DNA of 49,785 nt from Oscillospiraceae bacterium. GTDB taxonomy: Bacteria; Bacillota; Clostridia; Oscillospirales; Oscillospiraceae. Made by a program: the position numbers and the translations under genes. Location: the NCBI GenBank assembly GCA_902774015.1, contig CACYHB010000024.1:1536-51320 (forward strand), given 5' to 3'. Under the pieces are notes generated by a model, which made no database searches, was not told the origin of the DNA, and saw only the letters and a list, made by a program, of their open reading frames with translations. Positions 1-5,821 of the stretch are shown here, in pieces; positions within the stretch are counted from its first letter, which is position 1; each line of letters starts with the position of its first letter.

Positions 1-97
1 TCAGGCTTTTTCGGGTAATCGCATTTTGATCCCCCGTCAAAATGCGCGGCGGGAGAAGCGCAGTCAAAAAAGTCTGTCAGACTTTTTTGACAAGCTG
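1..97. repeat. 98-bp inverted repeat, copy 1
   Basis: This block is the reverse complement of 3447-3544, with one substitution and one single-base indel between the copies. The two copies face each other across the acyltransferase-nagB-glmM operon. The inner end of each carries a near-perfect 29-bp palindrome. The copy begins at the window edge and may extend beyond it. It could be a dispersed intergenic repeat or the footprint of a small element. Confidence 0.9.
63..91. terminator. Bidirectional terminator-like palindrome
   Basis: The arms read GTCAAAAAAGTCTG and CAGACTTTTTTGAC around a single central base, so either strand folds into a hairpin ending in a T-rich arm. It lies downstream of glmM on the minus strand and is the inner part of the 98-bp repeat. 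The same palindrome recurs in the second copy, at about 3453-3481. Confidence 0.6.
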
Positions 98-98
98 A

Positions 99-124
99 GC
101 AGGCCGCCCTTCCGGGCGGCCTGC
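99..124 (-). terminator. Hairpin after glmM
   Basis: GCAGGCCGCCC and GGGCGGCCTGC form a perfect 11-bp stem with a 4-nt loop, 24 bp past the glmM stop. There is no T run directly after it on the minus strand; the T-rich palindrome at 63-91 follows at once. The two hairpins probably act together to end the operon transcript. Confidence 0.7.
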
Positions 125-147
125 GGATGCTTGGTTCTATACGGCGA

Positions 148-1494
148 TTAAGCCAGATGGCCCTTGGCCTTGATCACGTCGATCACCTGATCCACGTACT
201 TTTCACAGGTTTCGTCGCTCTCGGCCTCCACCATGACGCGGATGACCGGCTCCGTGCCGCTCTCACGCACCAGGATGCGGCCTGTGTCGCCCAGCGCGTC
301 GGCAACCGCCTGCACGGCCGCCTGCACGTCGGGGTCGTTCTGCGCTTCGGGCTTGGACTTGACGCGCACGTTCTTGAGCACCTGGGGATAGAACACCACG
401 GGGGCCGCCAGCTCGCTCATGGGCTTGCGCTTGGCCAGCATGACTTCCATCAGCTTGAGGGAGGTCAGGATGCCGTCGCCGGTGGTCTCGTACTTGAGGA
501 AGATGGTGTGGCCGCTCTGCTCGCCGCCGAGGCGGTTGCCGGTCTGCACCATGTTCTCGTACACGTACTTGTCGCCGACCTTGGTCTTCTCGTACTCGAT
601 CCCCACCTTGTCCAGCGCCTTGTACAGGCCGAAGTTGGACATGACGGTGGTGACGACCTTGTTGTTGAGGAGCTTGCCCCGCTCCTTCATGTACAGGCCG
701 TAGATGTACAGCACGTGGTCGCCGGTGACGACGTTGCCCTTTTCATCCACACAGAGGCAGCGGTCGGCATCGCCGTCGTAGGCAAAGCCCACGTCCAGGC
801 CGTTGTCCACCACGAACTTCTGCAGATGCTCGATGTGGGTGCTGCCGCAGTCGGTGTTGATGTTGTAGCCGTCGGGCTCGGCGTTGATGACGTAGGTCTT
901 GGCGCCCAGCGCGTCGAACACGCCCTTGGCGATGGACCAGGCGGCGCCGTTTGCACAGTCCAGACCCACCTTCACGTCCTTGAAGCTGTACTTCGACATG
1001 GAGATCAGGTGACCCACGTAGCGGTTGCGGCCGGAGACGTAGTCCACCGTTCTGCCGATGGCCTCCCGCTCGGCAACGGGGATCTCCAGCTTGCCGTCGA
1101 TGTAGTCCTCGACCTTCAGAATGGTCTCCTCGTCCATCTTCTCACCGCTGCCGTTCAAGAGCTTGATGCCGTTGTCGTAGTAGGGGTTGTGGGAGGCGGA
1201 GATCATGATGCCGCAGTCAAAGTCGTCCACGCGGGTGATGTAAGCCACGGAGGGCGTGGTGGTGACGTGCATGATATACGCGTCCGCGCCGGAGGCCATC
1301 AGGCCCGTGCACAGGGCGTACTCGAACATGTAGGAGGAGCGGCGGGTGTCCTTGCCGATGACGACCTTGGCTTTCTTGCCCTGATTGACGCCGTAGTACC
1401 AGCCCAGAAAACGGCCGATCTTGATGGCGTGCTCATAGCTGAGGTTTTTGTTCGCTTCGCCGCGGAAGCCGTCGGTCCCGAAGTATTTGCCCAT
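148..1494 (-). CDS. glmM: Phosphoglucosamine mutase
   Basis: A 448-aa alpha-D-phosphohexomutase, expected to interconvert glucosamine-6-phosphate and glucosamine-1-phosphate in the cytoplasm for UDP-GlcNAc and peptidoglycan synthesis. All four family signatures are present in order: the phosphoserine loop SASHNP (Ser101), the metal loop DGDADR, the sugar-binding GEQSG loop, and the phosphate-binding RESGTEP loop near the C terminus. Length matches GlmM. The start is ATG (MGKYFGTDGFRG), two bases after the nagB stop, with an AAGGAG inside the end of nagB, so the genes are translationally close. It is third in an operon with the hexapeptide acyltransferase and nagB, which favours glucosamine over glucose or mannose as substrate. 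A broader phosphoglucomutase activity cannot be excluded from sequence. Confidence 0.92.
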   Translation of the reverse strand: MGKYFGTDGFRGEANKNLSYEHAIKIGRFLGWYYGVNQGKKAKVVIGKDTRRSSYMFEYALCTGLMASGADAYIMHVTTTPSVAYITRVDDFDCGIMISASHNPYYDNGIKLLNGSGEKMDEETILKVEDYIDGKLEIPVAEREAIGRTVDYVSGRNRYVGHLISMSKYSFKDVKVGLDCANGAAWSIAKGVFDALGAKTYVINAEPDGYNINTDCGSTHIEHLQKFVVDNGLDVGFAYDGDADRCLCVDEKGNVVTGDHVLYIYGLYMKERGKLLNNKVVTTVMSNFGLYKALDKVGIEYEKTKVGDKYVYENMVQTGNRLGGEQSGHTIFLKYETTGDGILTSLKLMEVMLAKRKPMSELAAPVVFYPQVLKNVRVKSKPEAQNDPDVQAAVQAVADALGDTGRILVRESGTEPVIRVMVEAESDETCEKYVDQVIDVIKAKGHLA

Positions 1495-1496
1495 GC

Positions 1497-2288
1497 TTAC
1501 AGACGCTCCTTCCGCTCGATGTCGAGGAAGTACTTGTAGGTGTCCACGGTCAGCTCGCCGCAGGCGGCCTCATCGCAGGCGATGATGGCGCCGTTGTGCA
1601 TCTGCAGCGCGGAGCAGGTCCACTTGTGGCTTACGTTGCCCTCCACGGTGGCGGCCAGGGCGCGGGCCTTGTTGTGGCCGGAGATGAGCACCAGGACCTC
1701 CTTGGAGTCGGTCACGGTGCCGATGCCCACGCTCAGCGCCTGGGCGGGGACCTTCTCGGGGTCGTTGCCGAAGAAACGGGAGTTCACGATGCGGGTATCG
1801 GTGGTCAGATCGCGCACACCGGTGCGGGACGAAAGAGAGGTAAAGGGCTCGTTGAAGGCCAGATGGCCGTCCACGCCGATGCCGCCCATGAAGAGGTCGA
1901 TGCCGCCGTAGGAGGCGATCTTCTCCTCGTAGCGGGCGCACTCGCCCTCAGGATCGTCGGTCATGCCGTTGAGGATGTTGATGTTCTCCGGCTTCATATC
2001 CACCAGATGGTCGAAAAGATTGTCGTGCATGAAATACCAGTAGCTCTGGTCATGCTCGTGGGGCAGGCCGAGGTACTCGTCCATGTTGAAGGTGACCACG
2101 TTGGCGAAGCTCAGCTCGCCCGCCCGGTTCATGCGCACCAGCTCCTTATAGACGCCGATGGGGCTGGAGCCGGTGGGGAGGCCGAGCACGAAGGGCCGGT
2201 CTTCCTTGTGGGCCTTGATCTTCGCGGCAATGTAGTCTGCCGCCCATTTGCACATTTTATCGTAATTGTCCTGAATCACAACACGCAT
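1497..2288 (-). CDS. nagB: Glucosamine-6-phosphate deaminase (isomerising)
   Basis: A NagB-family protein of 263 aa, which interconverts glucosamine-6-phosphate with fructose-6-phosphate plus ammonia. Visible motifs are the phosphate loop GLPTGSSPIG, the active-site MDEYLGL and the GHLAFNEP loop with its catalytic histidine. The ATG at 2288 (MRVVIQDN) is chosen because AAGGAG lies about 10 nt upstream; an in-frame extension to 2309 has no such site. It sits between the acyltransferase and glmM, and no nagA is nearby. With a glucosamine-6-phosphate-sensing ribozyme in the leader, a biosynthetic role (amination of fructose-6-phosphate) is a plausible inference. The family is best known for catabolic deamination. 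Confidence 0.92.
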   Translation of the reverse strand: MRVVIQDNYDKMCKWAADYIAAKIKAHKEDRPFVLGLPTGSSPIGVYKELVRMNRAGELSFANVVTFNMDEYLGLPHEHDQSYWYFMHDNLFDHLVDMKPENINILNGMTDDPEGECARYEEKIASYGGIDLFMGGIGVDGHLAFNEPFTSLSSRTGVRDLTTDTRIVNSRFFGNDPEKVPAQALSVGIGTVTDSKEVLVLISGHNKARALAATVEGNVSHKWTCSALQMHNGAIIACDEAACGELTVDTYKYFLDIERKERL

Positions 2289-2363
2289 CGTAACATTTCT
2301 CCTTTTCAAGATAGTATCGCATATGTTTCGTATCGGCTCCCCGATGCGGGGGAGGCCGAGCCG

Positions 2364-3020
2364 TCAGAATTTTTCGACGATCTCGCCGCTGTTCTTGTAG
2401 ATGCAGTTTTCGGGGACCACGCCGCGCACGCAGGAGGTGGGATAGACGTTGCTGTGCCGCCCGACGACGGTGCCGGGGTTGCAGACGCTGTTGCAGCCCA
2501 CTTCCACATAGTCGCCCAGCATGGCGCCGAATTTCTTGATGCCGGTCTCGATCTGCTCGGTGCCGTTGTGCACCACGACCAGCTTTTTGTCGCTCTTGAC
2601 GTTGGATGTGATGGAGCCTGCGCCCATGTGGCTGTAGTAGCCCAGGATAGAGTCGCCCACGTAGTTGTAGTGGGGCGTCTGCACATGGTCAAAGAGGATC
2701 ACGTTCTTCAGCTCCACGGAGTTGCCGACCACGCAGTTGGCGCCGACCAGGGCGGAGCCGCGGATAAAAGCGCAGTGCCGCACTTCTGTCTCGGGTCCGA
2801 TGATGCAGGGCGCGCCCAGATAGGCCGTGGGAAAGACCTTCGCCGTCTTGTGTACCCAGACGTGCTCGGAGACTTCCTCGTAGTCCTCCCCCAGCGTGGG
2901 ACCGAGGCGCAGGATCAGCTCCTTGATGCCCTTCAGCGCCTCCCAGGGATAGGTGAAGCCGCGCAGATAGTCTGCTGCCAGCGTATGGTCGAGATCATAA
3001 AGATCGCTGATGGTATACAT
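2364..3020 (-). CDS. Left-handed beta-helix acyltransferase, GlmU C-domain-like
   Basis: A 218-aa protein with an alpha-helical first ~50 residues followed by imperfect hexapeptide repeats of the left-handed beta-helix type (about residues 55-200: GAPCIIG, GSALVGANCVVG, NSVELKNVIL, NPGTVVG). The closest familiar fold is the acetyltransferase half of GlmU; the nucleotidyltransferase half is absent. The likely reaction is N-acetylation of glucosamine-1-phosphate or a related sugar, fitting nagB and glmM downstream. Such proteins are often loosely annotated as UDP-GlcNAc pyrophosphorylase, for which no domain is seen. The ATG at 3020 follows GGAGG by 12 nt. It is the first gene after the glmS-type ribozyme. 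Function is inferred from fold and context. Confidence 0.8.
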   Translation of the reverse strand: MYTISDLYDLDHTLAADYLRGFTYPWEALKGIKELILRLGPTLGEDYEEVSEHVWVHKTAKVFPTAYLGAPCIIGPETEVRHCAFIRGSALVGANCVVGNSVELKNVILFDHVQTPHYNYVGDSILGYYSHMGAGSITSNVKSDKKLVVVHNGTEQIETGIKKFGAMLGDYVEVGCNSVCNPGTVVGRHSNVYPTSCVRGVVPENCIYKNSGEIVEKF

Positions 3021-3090
3021 TTGTTTCGTCTGCCTCCAGATTCGAAGTCGGACTGCATACGTGTCGGAAAAGCCTCTGTTACAGTGTTGA

Positions 3091-3195
3091 TTCTGCTTTT
3101 TCTCTTTCCCTTTCGGCCCACGCAGAGCCGTGGCAGCATCCGCCGAATCTTTCGATCACTGCCAGCCTCGTCAACCATTGCGGTCCCGGCGCTAA
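3091..3195 (-). ncRNA. glmS-class self-cleaving ribozyme
   Basis: Read on the minus strand, the leader carries the glmS ribozyme core in order: AGCGCC (cleavage expected between the A at 3193 and G at 3192), a short P2 helix (GACC, loop GCAA, GGTT), the invariant TTGACGAGG, then GGCAG pairing with CTGCC around ATCGA and TTCGGCGGATG, and a P3 helix at 3114-3130 (CGGCTC with GGGCCG) followed by AAAG. Every invariant block I know from the Bacillus and Thermoanaerobacter ribozymes is present. The 3' limit and optional P4 are uncertain. It lies between the promoter at 3326-3354 and the acyltransferase start at 3020. Glucosamine-6-phosphate-dependent cleavage would lower expression of the operon. 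Confidence 0.92.
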
Positions 3196-3325
3196 CGGCC
3201 CTCCGCCTCCTCCCGGCGGAATGGCGTTTTCTCAGCCCGATGCGCAGTCCCCGCACCGGATCGGCGATGTCCCTCGAATGACACCGCTTTGAGCGGTGCC
3301 CCGGAAAACAGCACCATTGTCCGGT

Positions 3326-3354
3326 ATTATATCACAGCTCTATGGCATTTTCAA
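3326..3354 (-). promoter_or_regulatory. Sigma-A promoter of the amino-sugar operon
   Basis: On the minus strand TTGAAA (3349-3354) and TATAAT (3326-3331) are separated by exactly 17 bp. Transcription from about 3318 gives a leader near 300 nt that contains the ribozyme. Confidence 0.85.
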
Positions 3355-3416
3355 CAGAACAGCGCATGGTTATTTGTACAACTTTTTTGCCTGCCGCCTG
3401 CAGGCAAAAGGCAAAA

Positions 3417-3445
3417 CGCCCCTGCCGTACAAGACGGCGGGGGCG
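3417..3445. repeat. GC-rich hairpin, copy a
   Basis: CGCCCCTGCCGT and ACGGCGGGGGCG form a 12-bp stem (one wobble) around a 5-nt loop. An almost identical hairpin sits at 3658-3686. This one abuts the second 98-bp repeat and lies upstream of the amino-sugar promoter, so it is not that operon's terminator. Confidence 0.7.
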
Positions 3446-3446
3446 C

Positions 3447-3544
3447 CAGCTTGTCAAAAAAGTCTGACAGACTTTTTTGACTGCGCTTCTCCCGCCGCGC
3501 ATTTTGACCGGGGAATCAAAATGCGATTACCCGAAAAAGCCTGA
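3447..3544. repeat. 98-bp inverted repeat, copy 2
   Basis: This is the inverted partner of 1-97 (about 98% identical), including the 29-bp T-rich palindrome. It lies upstream of the amino-sugar promoter. The remaining intergenic bases, 3545-3657, hold only a CTCGAGG/CCTCGAG hairpin and no convincing gene. Confidence 0.9.
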
Positions 3545-3657
3545 TATTTCAGCCTTTTTCGGACGGCGGGTTATTGTACTCGAGGCGGGCCTTGCCCCCT
3601 CGAGCTCCCCCGCTGCTCTGTTTGTTGTGCTTTCAGCGTAGTTTATTGACAGTCTCA

Positions 3658-3686
3658 CGCCCCTGCCGTACGAGACGGCAGGGGCG
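3658..3686 (-). terminator. Hairpin after the EFR1 ferredoxin gene
   Basis: CGCCCCTGCCGT and ACGGCAGGGGCG form a perfect 12-bp stem with a 5-nt loop, 22 bp beyond the stop of the minus-strand ferredoxin gene. No T run follows, so termination efficiency is uncertain. It is a second copy of the hairpin at 3417-3445. Confidence 0.55.
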
Positions 3687-3708
3687 CATTTTCTTTGGAT
3701 CTACGGCC

Positions 3709-4491
3709 TCAGTCGATGTGGATGATTTTTTTCGACAGATCCGCAGCCTTTACGTTGGGATTCGGGAAGCGCTCACGCTTCTCGGTGATCCTGCCCACGT
3801 TGATGGCGGCCTTCGGGCAGAACTGCACGCAGCTCAGGCAGCCGATGCAGTTGCGGCCGAAGCTAGGCTTTCCGCCCTGGAGCTGGATGTTGTTGCGGGG
3901 ACATACCTTGACGCAGGTGCCGCAGGAGATGCAGGCGTCGCTCGCGGCAAACTTTTTGCTTCGCGCGGCGTGCATTTTGGAAAAGCCCGCGCTCTCGGCG
4001 GCAAAGAGGCTGTTTTTGGGCGGCTTCTTTGCGCTGCGCTCAAAGGCCTTCACAGCGGCGCCGACCTTCTCGGCCGTGCGGTCCAGGCGCTTCTGGGCAT
4101 TTTTCTTGCTGGTAGGCGGCACCGTCAGCGTGTGGGGCATGAGCCAGATGCAGGTGGAGTGGTTGGAAACGGTAGCCCAATAATCCAGATCCACGATCTC
4201 GTCGATCTTATGCAGGCCGCAGCCGATGTAGCCCGCGTACTGCTCCACAGCGAAGGTGTATGCGTTGGGGGCCAGCTTGATGGCCTTGACGTAGCTCTCC
4301 ACATCGCCGGGCAGACCGCCGCCGTAACAGGGGAAAACAAAGCCCACGCGCCTGGCTTCGGTGGCGTCGGTCTTCTCCGGAAAGGCGCGCATCATGACGA
4401 TGTCGGTATCGCCCAGGACCTTGGCGATGCTCATGGCCATGTTCAGACAGTGGCCGGAGCCGGAATAACAATAGATGATGTTTTCGCTCAT
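3709..4491 (-). CDS. EFR1-family flavodoxin/ferredoxin fusion
   Basis: A 260-aa protein with an N-terminal flavodoxin-like half (residues 1-150, phosphate-loop-like SGSGHCLNMA) and a C-terminal bacterial ferredoxin half with two [4Fe-4S] motifs, CISCGTCVKVCP and CIGCLSCVQFCP. It should carry FMN plus two clusters and move electrons in the cytoplasm of an anaerobe; the partner is unknown. The ATG follows AGGAG at 8-9 nt. It is a single-gene unit with its own promoter and hairpin. The family is common in Clostridia, but I know of no assigned physiological role. Confidence 0.88.
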   Translation of the reverse strand: MSENIIYCYSGSGHCLNMAMSIAKVLGDTDIVMMRAFPEKTDATEARRVGFVFPCYGGGLPGDVESYVKAIKLAPNAYTFAVEQYAGYIGCGLHKIDEIVDLDYWATVSNHSTCIWLMPHTLTVPPTSKKNAQKRLDRTAEKVGAAVKAFERSAKKPPKNSLFAAESAGFSKMHAARSKKFAASDACISCGTCVKVCPRNNIQLQGGKPSFGRNCIGCLSCVQFCPKAAINVGRITEKRERFPNPNVKAADLSKKIIHID

Positions 4492-4540
4492 TCTGATCTC
4501 TCCTGTTTCATAGTTGTATATGCAGACTTCAGCTTGTTAT

Positions 4541-4569
4541 ATTATCGCACATCGCCGCTCCGATTGCAA
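4541..4569 (-). promoter_or_regulatory. Promoter of the EFR1 gene
   Basis: On the minus strand TTGCAA (4564-4569) and GATAAT (4541-4546) are separated by 17 bp, about 50 bp upstream of the ferredoxin start. Confidence 0.6.
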
Positions 4570-4610
4570 GGGCGGCCGCGGCAGTTCCTCCTCCCTGCCG
4601 GCCTTCCGGA

Positions 4611-4643
4611 AGAGAAAACGCGGCGGGAAAAACCCGCCGCGTT
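4611..4643 (-). terminator. Terminator of the sucrose/fructan operon
   Basis: AACGCGGCGGG and CCCGCCGCGTT form a perfect 11-bp stem with a 5-nt loop, followed on the minus strand by TTTTCTC. It lies 20 bp after the ATPase stop and is a good intrinsic terminator. Confidence 0.85.
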
Positions 4644-4663
4644 GGATGCAATGGAATCTGTTC

Positions 4664-5821
4664 TCAGAACTCCAGGTTCTTGTCGGTCTCCTTGGAGAAG
4701 ACGTGGGCCACCTTGCCGTCGAAGGTGAAGTGCACGGTGTCGCCGATGTTGAAGTTACCCTTCATGTCGATGGTGGGAACAATGACGATCACGTCCTTGC
4801 CCTCGGCATTCAGGTGCAGGTGCACGCTGGAGCCCATCATTTCGGACACTTCGACCGTGGCCTTGACGCCTTCGTCAGCCACGTCGGTGTGCTCGGGACG
4901 GACGCCCAGGGTAATGGCCTGAGACTGCACGTCGTTCTTCAGCAGGCGCTCTTCCTTGTCCTCGGAGAGCTCGACCTTGATGCCGCCGACTTCCACGAAG
5001 AACTTCTTGCCGTCGCGCACGAGCTGGGCGTCGAAGAAGTTCATGACGGGCATGCCGATAAAGCCGGCCACGAAGAGGTTCGCAGGGTGATTGAACACGT
5101 CCTGAGGAGTGCCGATCTGCTGGATGTAGCCGTCCTTCATGATGACGATGCGGTCGCCCAGGGTCATGGCCTCGGTCTGGTCATGGGTGACGTACATGAA
5201 GGTGGTGTTGTCAGCGCGCATCTCGTTACGGAGCTTGGCGTCCAGGTTGGACAGAGGCTCGTCCATCAGCATGACCTTCGGGTCACGCACGATGGCGCGG
5301 CCGATGGCGACACGCTGGCGCTGGCCGCCGGACAGAGCCTTGGGCTTGCGCTCCAGGTACTGGGTGATGTCCAGGATCTCGGCCGCTTCACGGACCTTCT
5401 TGTCGATGACGTCCTTCGGCTCCTTGCGAAGCTTCAGGGAGAAGGCCATGTTGTCATACACGGTCATGTGGGGGTAAAGGGCGTAGTTCTGGAAAACCAT
5501 GGCGATGTCACGATCCTTGGGGGCCACGTCGTTCATGACCTTGCCGTCGATGATCAGCTCGCCGTCGGAGATCTCTTCGAGACCCGCGACCATGCGCAGG
5601 GTGGTGGATTTGCCGCAGCCGGAGGGGCCGACCAGAACGATGAATTCCTTGTCCTTGATGTCCAGGTTGAAGGCCTGCACAGCCACGACGCCTTCATCGG
5701 TGATCTGGAGGTTTACCTTTTTCTTCTCGGGTTCGTCAGCCTTTTTCTTCTTGGACTTCTTCTGCTCGCCGCTGACAAAGGGGTACACTTTCTTGATGTT
5801 TACCAGTCTGACTTCTGCCAT
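4664..5821 (-). CDS. Sugar ABC transporter ATPase, MsmK/UgpC type, with internal deletion
   Basis: A 385-aa ATPase of the MalK/MsmK/UgpC group, which would energise the LplB/LplC permeases upstream. Walker A GPSGCGKST (65-73), signature LSGGQ (163-167), Walker B VMLMDEP (183-189), H-loop His213 and a C-terminal TOBE-like region are present. Two oddities stand out. Residues 19-36 form a lysine-rich insert between the first strand and the rest of the catalytic domain. Between the D-loop (SNLDAKLRNEMRA) and the switch strand (TTFMYVTHDQ), about eight residues of a helix found in MalK-type proteins are missing in frame. Start: ATG 5821 (MAEVRLVNI) matches the family N terminus; upstream in-frame codons lack a good ribosome site. 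It is the last gene of the operon. Confidence 0.88.
   Translation of the reverse strand: MAEVRLVNIKKVYPFVSGEQKKSKKKKADEPEKKKVNLQITDEGVVAVQAFNLDIKDKEFIVLVGPSGCGKSTTLRMVAGLEEISDGELIIDGKVMNDVAPKDRDIAMVFQNYALYPHMTVYDNMAFSLKLRKEPKDVIDKKVREAAEILDITQYLERKPKALSGGQRQRVAIGRAIVRDPKVMLMDEPLSNLDAKLRNEMRADNTTFMYVTHDQTEAMTLGDRIVIMKDGYIQQIGTPQDVFNHPANLFVAGFIGMPVMNFFDAQLVRDGKKFFVEVGGIKVELSEDKEERLLKNDVQSQAITLGVRPEHTDVADEGVKATVEVSEMMGSSVHLHLNAEGKDVIVIVPTIDMKGNFNIGDTVHFTFDGKVAHVFSKETDKNLEF

Follow-up and report, generated by a model that had tools for sequence, protein, structure and literature searches.

A glmS ribozyme heads nagB, glmM and acetyltransferase genes in gut clostridia and may govern an ammonia-dependent route to glucosamine-6-phosphate

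The window, a stretch of 49,785 nucleotides from an Oscillospiraceae genome (contig CACYHB010000024.1), carries a glmS ribozyme that does not stand in its usual context, the leader of glmS, but ahead of genes for a left-handed beta-helix acetyltransferase (LbH), for NagB and for GlmM. We consider it probable that NagB works here as an ammonia-dependent synthase of glucosamine-6-phosphate (GlcN6P) that feeds GlmM and LbH, and that the operon forms a branch into UDP-GlcNAc under feedback control by its product. The features of the window and of its genome are as follows.

3354-3326, minus strand: sigma-70-type promoter, TTGAAA-17-TATAAT, 11 of 12 consensus positions, with TG preceding the second hexamer
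3204-3056, minus strand: glmS ribozyme (RF00234), cmscan 64.3 bits, E 1.3e-12, full length (model positions 1-167)
3020-2364, minus strand: LbH, 218-aa left-handed beta-helix (hexapeptide) acetyltransferase, matching the acetyltransferase half of Arch_glmU at 139 bits
2288-1497, minus strand: nagB, 263 aa, glucosamine-6-phosphate deaminase family, TIGR00502 at 373 bits (cut-off 236.9)
1494-148, minus strand: glmM, 448 aa, phosphoglucosamine mutase, TIGR01455 at 542.7 bits (cut-off 447.55)
1-97 and 3447-3544: arms of an inverted repeat of about 97 bases, 97-99% identical, flanking the ribozyme operon downstream and upstream, respectively
Contig C4, locus L050, 9694-12892: glutamine synthetase-glmS pair, the former identified by Pfam, with a reading frame that extends upstream
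Contig C3, 131746-132441 (locus L089): second, more distant NagB-like gene, 142 bits, under the cut-off, with one internal stop in the match

The first-pass annotation had described a complete glmS ribozyme core behind a promoter and ahead of an operon without glmS, and all three statements stand. The RNA exceeds the gathering score of its Rfam family (37 bits) over the full length of the model, the promoter lies upstream of it, and profile matches identify the genes as LbH, nagB and glmM. Promoter-like sites number three in positions 1-4600 of the window, against 1.2 expected from shuffles. The gene order had been given as nagB-glmM-acyltransferase and needs correction: on the minus strand, the promoter is followed by the ribozyme and then by LbH-nagB-glmM. 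Cleavage at the A before GCGCC, which we take to be the cleavage position of glmS ribozymes, would fall at about 3193/3192.

To the Rfam search we added a model of our own (R1), built from 32 NagB-type leaders (set A2) that were left from 37 (set A1) after removal of two near copies (L056, L079), two leaders cut or misplaced in the alignment (L035, L046) and one divergent leader (L045). R1 gives the window's ribozyme 155 bits, although the window's own leader was among the sequences used to build R1, which match by construction. Across the 32 leaders, the core columns are invariant, 17 of the 33 predicted pairs show two-sided changes that keep the pair, and pairing cells amount to 97.3%. The covariation score is 0.419, as opposed to a mean of 0.218 (sd 0.010) in shuffled alignments, none of which scored as high in 500 attempts; controls with slid partners reached 0.075-0.103, a comparison that favours the leader structure over its slid versions because it was derived from the same alignment. 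Judged by its sequence, the window's RNA is thus confirmed as a member of the glmS ribozyme family with covarying helices, and it is predicted to cleave. A regular expression for the ribozyme motif, with up to three substitutions, was rejected because it also matches within coding sequence; the ribozyme counts given here are therefore based on Rfam and R1.

The spacers in the operon are short (75 bases between LbH and nagB, 2 between nagB and glmM), making a single transcript likely. LbH is probably a glucosamine-1-phosphate N-acetyltransferase. Its 139 bits lie below the Arch_glmU cut-off of 292, which applies to the two-domain protein, and its residues 45-199 have their best PDB relatives in 5z09 and 2ggo, a dual sugar-1-phosphate enzyme. 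In NagB, D72, D141, H143 and E148, presumably the catalytic residues, are retained in all 127 distinct sequences with 85% identity or more. The allosteric E. coli type is absent from this set: T, G and R occupy positions 151, 158 and 160 in 127 of 127, and Y254 is found in 120 with a gap in 7, whereas S151, R158, K160 and Y254 are what we take to be the allosteric-site residues of E. coli NagB. Some Gram-positive NagB enzymes are monomeric and have no known effector, according to excerpts of PMC4281351, so that these residues say little in favour of a biosynthetic NagB. As to the surroundings of the operon, the flanking inverted repeat contains the palindrome TCAAAAAAGTCTGACAGACTTTTTTGA and is possibly a small repeat element or a pair of terminators. 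A malK-I RNA (RF03069, 132.9 bits) lies further off, at 5998-5816 on the minus strand, at the start of an open reading frame for an ABC-transporter-like ATPase.

In the proposed mechanism, NagB would form GlcN6P from fructose-6-phosphate and NH3, GlmM would convert GlcN6P to GlcN1P, and LbH would acetylate GlcN1P with acetyl-CoA to GlcNAc1P, pulling the reversible NagB step forward; a uridylyltransferase would complete the path to UDP-GlcNAc. The reversibility of the NagB step, stated in excerpts of PMC4281351, may be the reason why nagB is expressed together with two pulling steps, GlmM and LbH. High GlcN6P, whether from synthesis or salvage, would bind to the leader ribozyme as its cofactor. 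The leader RNA would then cut itself ahead of the first gene, the message would be degraded and all three enzymes would fall. The available part of PMC11477304 describes such a course, cleavage and then decay by RNase, for the glmS ribozyme family. Once the route is shut, NagB would also be unable to drain GlcN6P back.

Comparison of genomes shows that the arrangement is conserved. In a sample of the family, the ribozyme is present in 45 of 300 genomes, in 34 of them before glmS and in 11 before nagB, LbH or glmM. The genus has 39 copies in 38 of 102 genomes, all of which precede nagB, LbH or glmM; the 38 are a lower bound, since the genus search with its strict filters missed at least two ribozymes that R1 or Rfam detected (a NagB leader in G371, and a leader in G376 that is cut by the contig end). 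The first gene behind the ribozyme is NagB in 18, LbH in 15 and GlmM in one of the 34 genus copies inspected on their loci; the remaining five (G310, G341, G342, G354, G390) adjoin NagB by coordinates. NagB of the window's type occurs in 38 of 38 ribozyme genomes and in 19 of the other 64, in a comparison between related genomes that do not count as independent events.

We examined the 80 public loci with the highest NagB similarity among the 564 confirmed matches listed; they thus represent close NagB relatives, not a census. They had no part in the building of R1, and some duplicate genus genomes (L194 lies within genome G371). Most of their records are titled as metagenome-assembled genomes (MAGs) from ruminant guts or as uncultured bacteria, with YRB3002, P7, NK3D112 and NK3B98 as strain-named records. 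In 66 of these 80 best matches of 564, the ribozyme lies upstream on the NagB strand. With neighbours counted if they lie no more than 500 bases away and exceed 60% identity, and with some contigs ending early, the 66 have NagB-LbH-GlmM (35), LbH-NagB-GlmM (12), NagB alone (12), NagB-LbH (3), GlmM-NagB (2), LbH-GlmM-NagB (1) or LbH-NagB (1) behind the ribozyme. Rfam finds no glmS ribozyme in the other 14 of the best 80; in two of these 14 (L202, L251), the sequence starts within 100 bases of the first operon gene or inside it. The conserved linkage in the genus, the family sample and the public loci rules out that the ribozyme came to lie before the nagB operon by chance.

Several loci combine these genes in other ways. 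Three of the best 80 public loci (L203, L206, L207) have glmS immediately before the ribozyme, on its strand, with LbH-NagB-GlmM downstream. In three more (L218, L220, L261), glmS lies directly upstream of nagB, followed by LbH and glmM on one strand (L261 is cut by the contig end); Rfam detects no glmS ribozyme at these three loci, and NagB and GlmS are probably encoded in one operon there. The divergent leader of L045 (genome G036) precedes, at 1984-5024, a distant glmM-LbH-nagB operon with identities of 62.8, 70.3 and 34.8%, so that a NagB of another type occupies the same ribozyme setting; G036 further contains a glmS that follows glutamine synthetase (L273). Separate operons, each with a ribozyme of its own, are found in G371 (nagB; LbH-glmM) and in G315, a genome with 8% contamination (nagB; glmM).

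The ribozyme does not accompany every NagB of the window's type. Such a NagB is present in 57 genus genomes, 19 of which were without ribozyme in the genus search, although one of the 19, G376, has the ribozyme cut by the contig end. R1 detects no ribozyme in L151-L157, seven genus loci whose NagB is 87-94% identical and of which two (L156, L157) have glmM behind nagB. Nor does it detect one in nine genus loci with NagB of 75-82% identity (L158-L166), where glmM and LbH are not linked either; in one of these nine, G264, nagA lies beside nagB on the opposite strand. Some NagB enzymes of the window's type may therefore be catabolic.

The genome of the window (2.78 Mb in 88 contigs, 94.3% complete, 5.9% contaminated) contains a single Rfam glmS ribozyme, that of the operon. 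It has one NagB over the cut-off, besides the weaker second gene listed above, and one NagA over the cut-off. It also contains one glmS over the cut-off, which encodes 607 aa, scores 791 bits and lies on a contig of 296 kb. Neither Rfam nor R1 finds a ribozyme at this glmS, and a glutamine synthetase gene lies directly before it on the same strand, 13 bases away, which suggests nitrogen-linked control of GlmS. Bifunctional GlmU (TIGR01173) has no match over the cut-off in this genome, so that a separate acetyltransferase would be needed. The combination of glmM and a GlmU-like acetyltransferase as partners with the lack of a GlmU over the cut-off supports a biosynthetic regulon. For the last step, six uridylyltransferase candidates from the same genome were scanned, none of which exceeds the GlmU cut-off; one candidate, L080 on contig C10, is a sugar nucleotidyltransferase that stays below all cut-offs.

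The window's organism would thus have two nitrogen routes to GlcN6P, from ammonia by NagB and from glutamine by a ribozyme-free GlmS, and the two could divide the labour according to nitrogen supply. The linkage of glutamine synthetase and glmS points in this direction, yet it follows one glmS lineage: where the glmS locus was inspected, glmS lies behind glutamine synthetase on the same strand in 16 of 26 genomes with the ribozyme and in 3 of 44 others, a difference of which much is explained by shared ancestry, since the glmS genes concerned form one related group.

In some relatives that carry the ribozyme, no match to glmS exceeds the cut-off. G131 (100% complete, 1% contaminated) and G004 (94% complete, 1% contaminated) have no match to glmS or nagA, and G376 (92% complete) has none to glmS. 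The best glmS matches of G357 (94% complete), of the strain record NK3B98 (G399) and of G404 are 19, 24 and 67 bits, all below the cut-off; nagA is over the cut-off in these three genomes and in G376. The ribozyme precedes nagB or LbH-nagB in each of the six. Among the matches listed, 22 of 102 genus genomes are without GlmS, a count that leaves out two genomes with glmS fragments (G359, G329). Of these 22, 11 have a NagB of the window's type, 5 a more distant NagB and 6 neither at E<=1e-30, and the latter six imply that the absence of glmS from MAGs is partly a matter of incompleteness. Of ten tested public genomes, drawn from the best 80 of 564 matches, eight have a glmS over the cut-off. 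In some relatives, NagB appears to be the sole route to GlcN6P.

These comparisons bear on the first-pass annotation, which had cast the operon as a GlmS-independent route with a biosynthetic NagB under feedback control. Control of a biosynthetic NagB by feedback gains support from the linkage in dozens of genomes, the separate ribozymes in two genomes and the relatives without glmS, and glmS is indeed missing from the operon. Strict GlmS independence does not hold in this organism: with an intact glmS elsewhere in the genome, NagB would provide a route beside it. The case that the annotation had named as refuting, an ordinary glmS under ribozyme control at another site, did not turn up, since Rfam detects one ribozyme in the genome.

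The most serious alternative, which we nevertheless judge unlikely, is that NagB is an ordinary deaminase whose production at low GlcN6P happens to coincide with that of GlmM and LbH, and that the organisms without glmS live on GlcNAc or GlcN from the rumen, much as Akkermansia lives on mucin sugars. The Akkermansia precedent (PMC5902328, in excerpts) is the main warning, by analogy, that a NagB without GlmS need not aminate. The presence of nagA over the cut-off in 78 of 102 genus genomes, including the glmS-less G399, G404, G357 and G376, fits this alternative, and with a normal GlmS and NagA in its genome, the window's NagB could still serve GlcNAc catabolism. Moreover, nagB stands alone behind the ribozyme in 12 of the 66 public loci (from the best 80 of 564) and in G174, where one ribozyme was found in the genome, which speaks against a synthase. 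However, it is hard to see what a cell would gain from producing a deaminase while the substrate is short and removing it once the substrate is plentiful. A deaminase also does not explain G131 and G004, with no match to either glmS or nagA, or the ribozymes that head glmM (G315) or LbH-glmM (G371) without nagB.

It is quite improbable that the ribozyme has decayed or been repurposed, such that GlcN6P would not trigger cleavage or cleavage would raise expression. The low Rfam score of some leaders, such as that of G131 (33.6 bits, under the cut-off of 37), could be taken in this sense, but the G131 leader has an extra insert and retains the core stretches, and the invariant core and the covariation beyond both controls argue against decay. 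Least probable of all, and already disfavoured, is that the ribozyme serves only glmM and LbH with nagB as a passenger of the cluster, for although LbH is the first gene in the window and LbH or glmM is first in 14 and 2, respectively, of the 66 public loci (among the best 80 of 564), nagB is first in 50 and alone in 12 of them, and nagB and LbH-glmM each have their own ribozyme in G371.

Synthesis of GlcN6P by NagB would have consequences beyond the window. Ammonia is present in the rumen in the millimolar range, and our data suggest that many rumen clostridia can use free ammonia, via NagB, to make the first amino sugar of their cell wall. A wider model, for which we see the case as evenly balanced, is that NagB replaces GlmS as the entry enzyme for cell-wall amino sugars in a large set of rumen clostridia and channels free ammonia into peptidoglycan precursors. 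The glmS ribozyme would then mark a regulon for GlcN6P synthesis (nagB, glmM and the acetyltransferase gene), with GlmS lost or ribozyme-free and in part placed behind glutamine synthetase as a backup for low ammonia. If this is true, the switch goes with the step that forms GlcN6P rather than with a single gene, and bacteria have a natural ammonia-fixing route into the cell wall. GlmS has been called essential in peptidoglycan-forming bacteria (cited in excerpts of PMC5902328), and the glmS ribozyme has been discussed as an antibacterial target with GlmS as its partner (excerpts of PMC11477304). GlcN6P mimics and GlmS inhibitors would be expected to act differently in these gut bacteria.

LbH differs from its best PDB relatives, the archaeal-type sugar-1-phosphate nucleotidylyltransferase/acetyltransferase of 5z09 and 2ggo (presumably S. 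tokodaii ST0452), in being a separate protein of 218 aa without a nucleotidyltransferase domain. As for the RNA, McCown et al. reportedly stated in 2011 that only two of 463 glmS ribozymes lie outside glmS mRNAs. The known leaders (RF00234), such as those of B. subtilis and C. difficile, share with the window's leader the RNA family over its full length and the position ahead of a GlcN6P-related gene (PMC11477304, in excerpts); they control glmS, whereas the window's leader would control nagB, glmM and a separate acetyltransferase gene. For NagB, the closest functional parallel is the anabolic GlmNagB of Giardia lamblia, which uses fructose-6-phosphate and ammonia to make GlcN6P; this organism is said to be without GlcN6P synthase. 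Giardia is a eukaryote and uses the product for its cyst wall, and the available excerpts of PMC4281351 mention neither a ribozyme nor an operon with glmM. Akkermansia muciniphila is a bacterium with NagB and without GlmS, but its NagB, with Km values of 41 mM for ammonium and 5.5 mM for fructose-6-phosphate, was judged incapable of amination at physiological concentrations, the organism requires GlcNAc or GalNAc, and the excerpts of PMC5902328 mention no ribozyme. The available parts of the literature searched, including PMC3766115, PMC11602151, PMC7967978 and PMC11477304 and with the McCown surveys outside its scope, do not report a coupling of the glmS ribozyme to nagB, glmM and LbH. The RNA, NagB, GlmM and LbH thus each belong to a known family, and what appears to be new is their conserved coupling, which extends to genomes in which no glmS match exceeds the cut-off.
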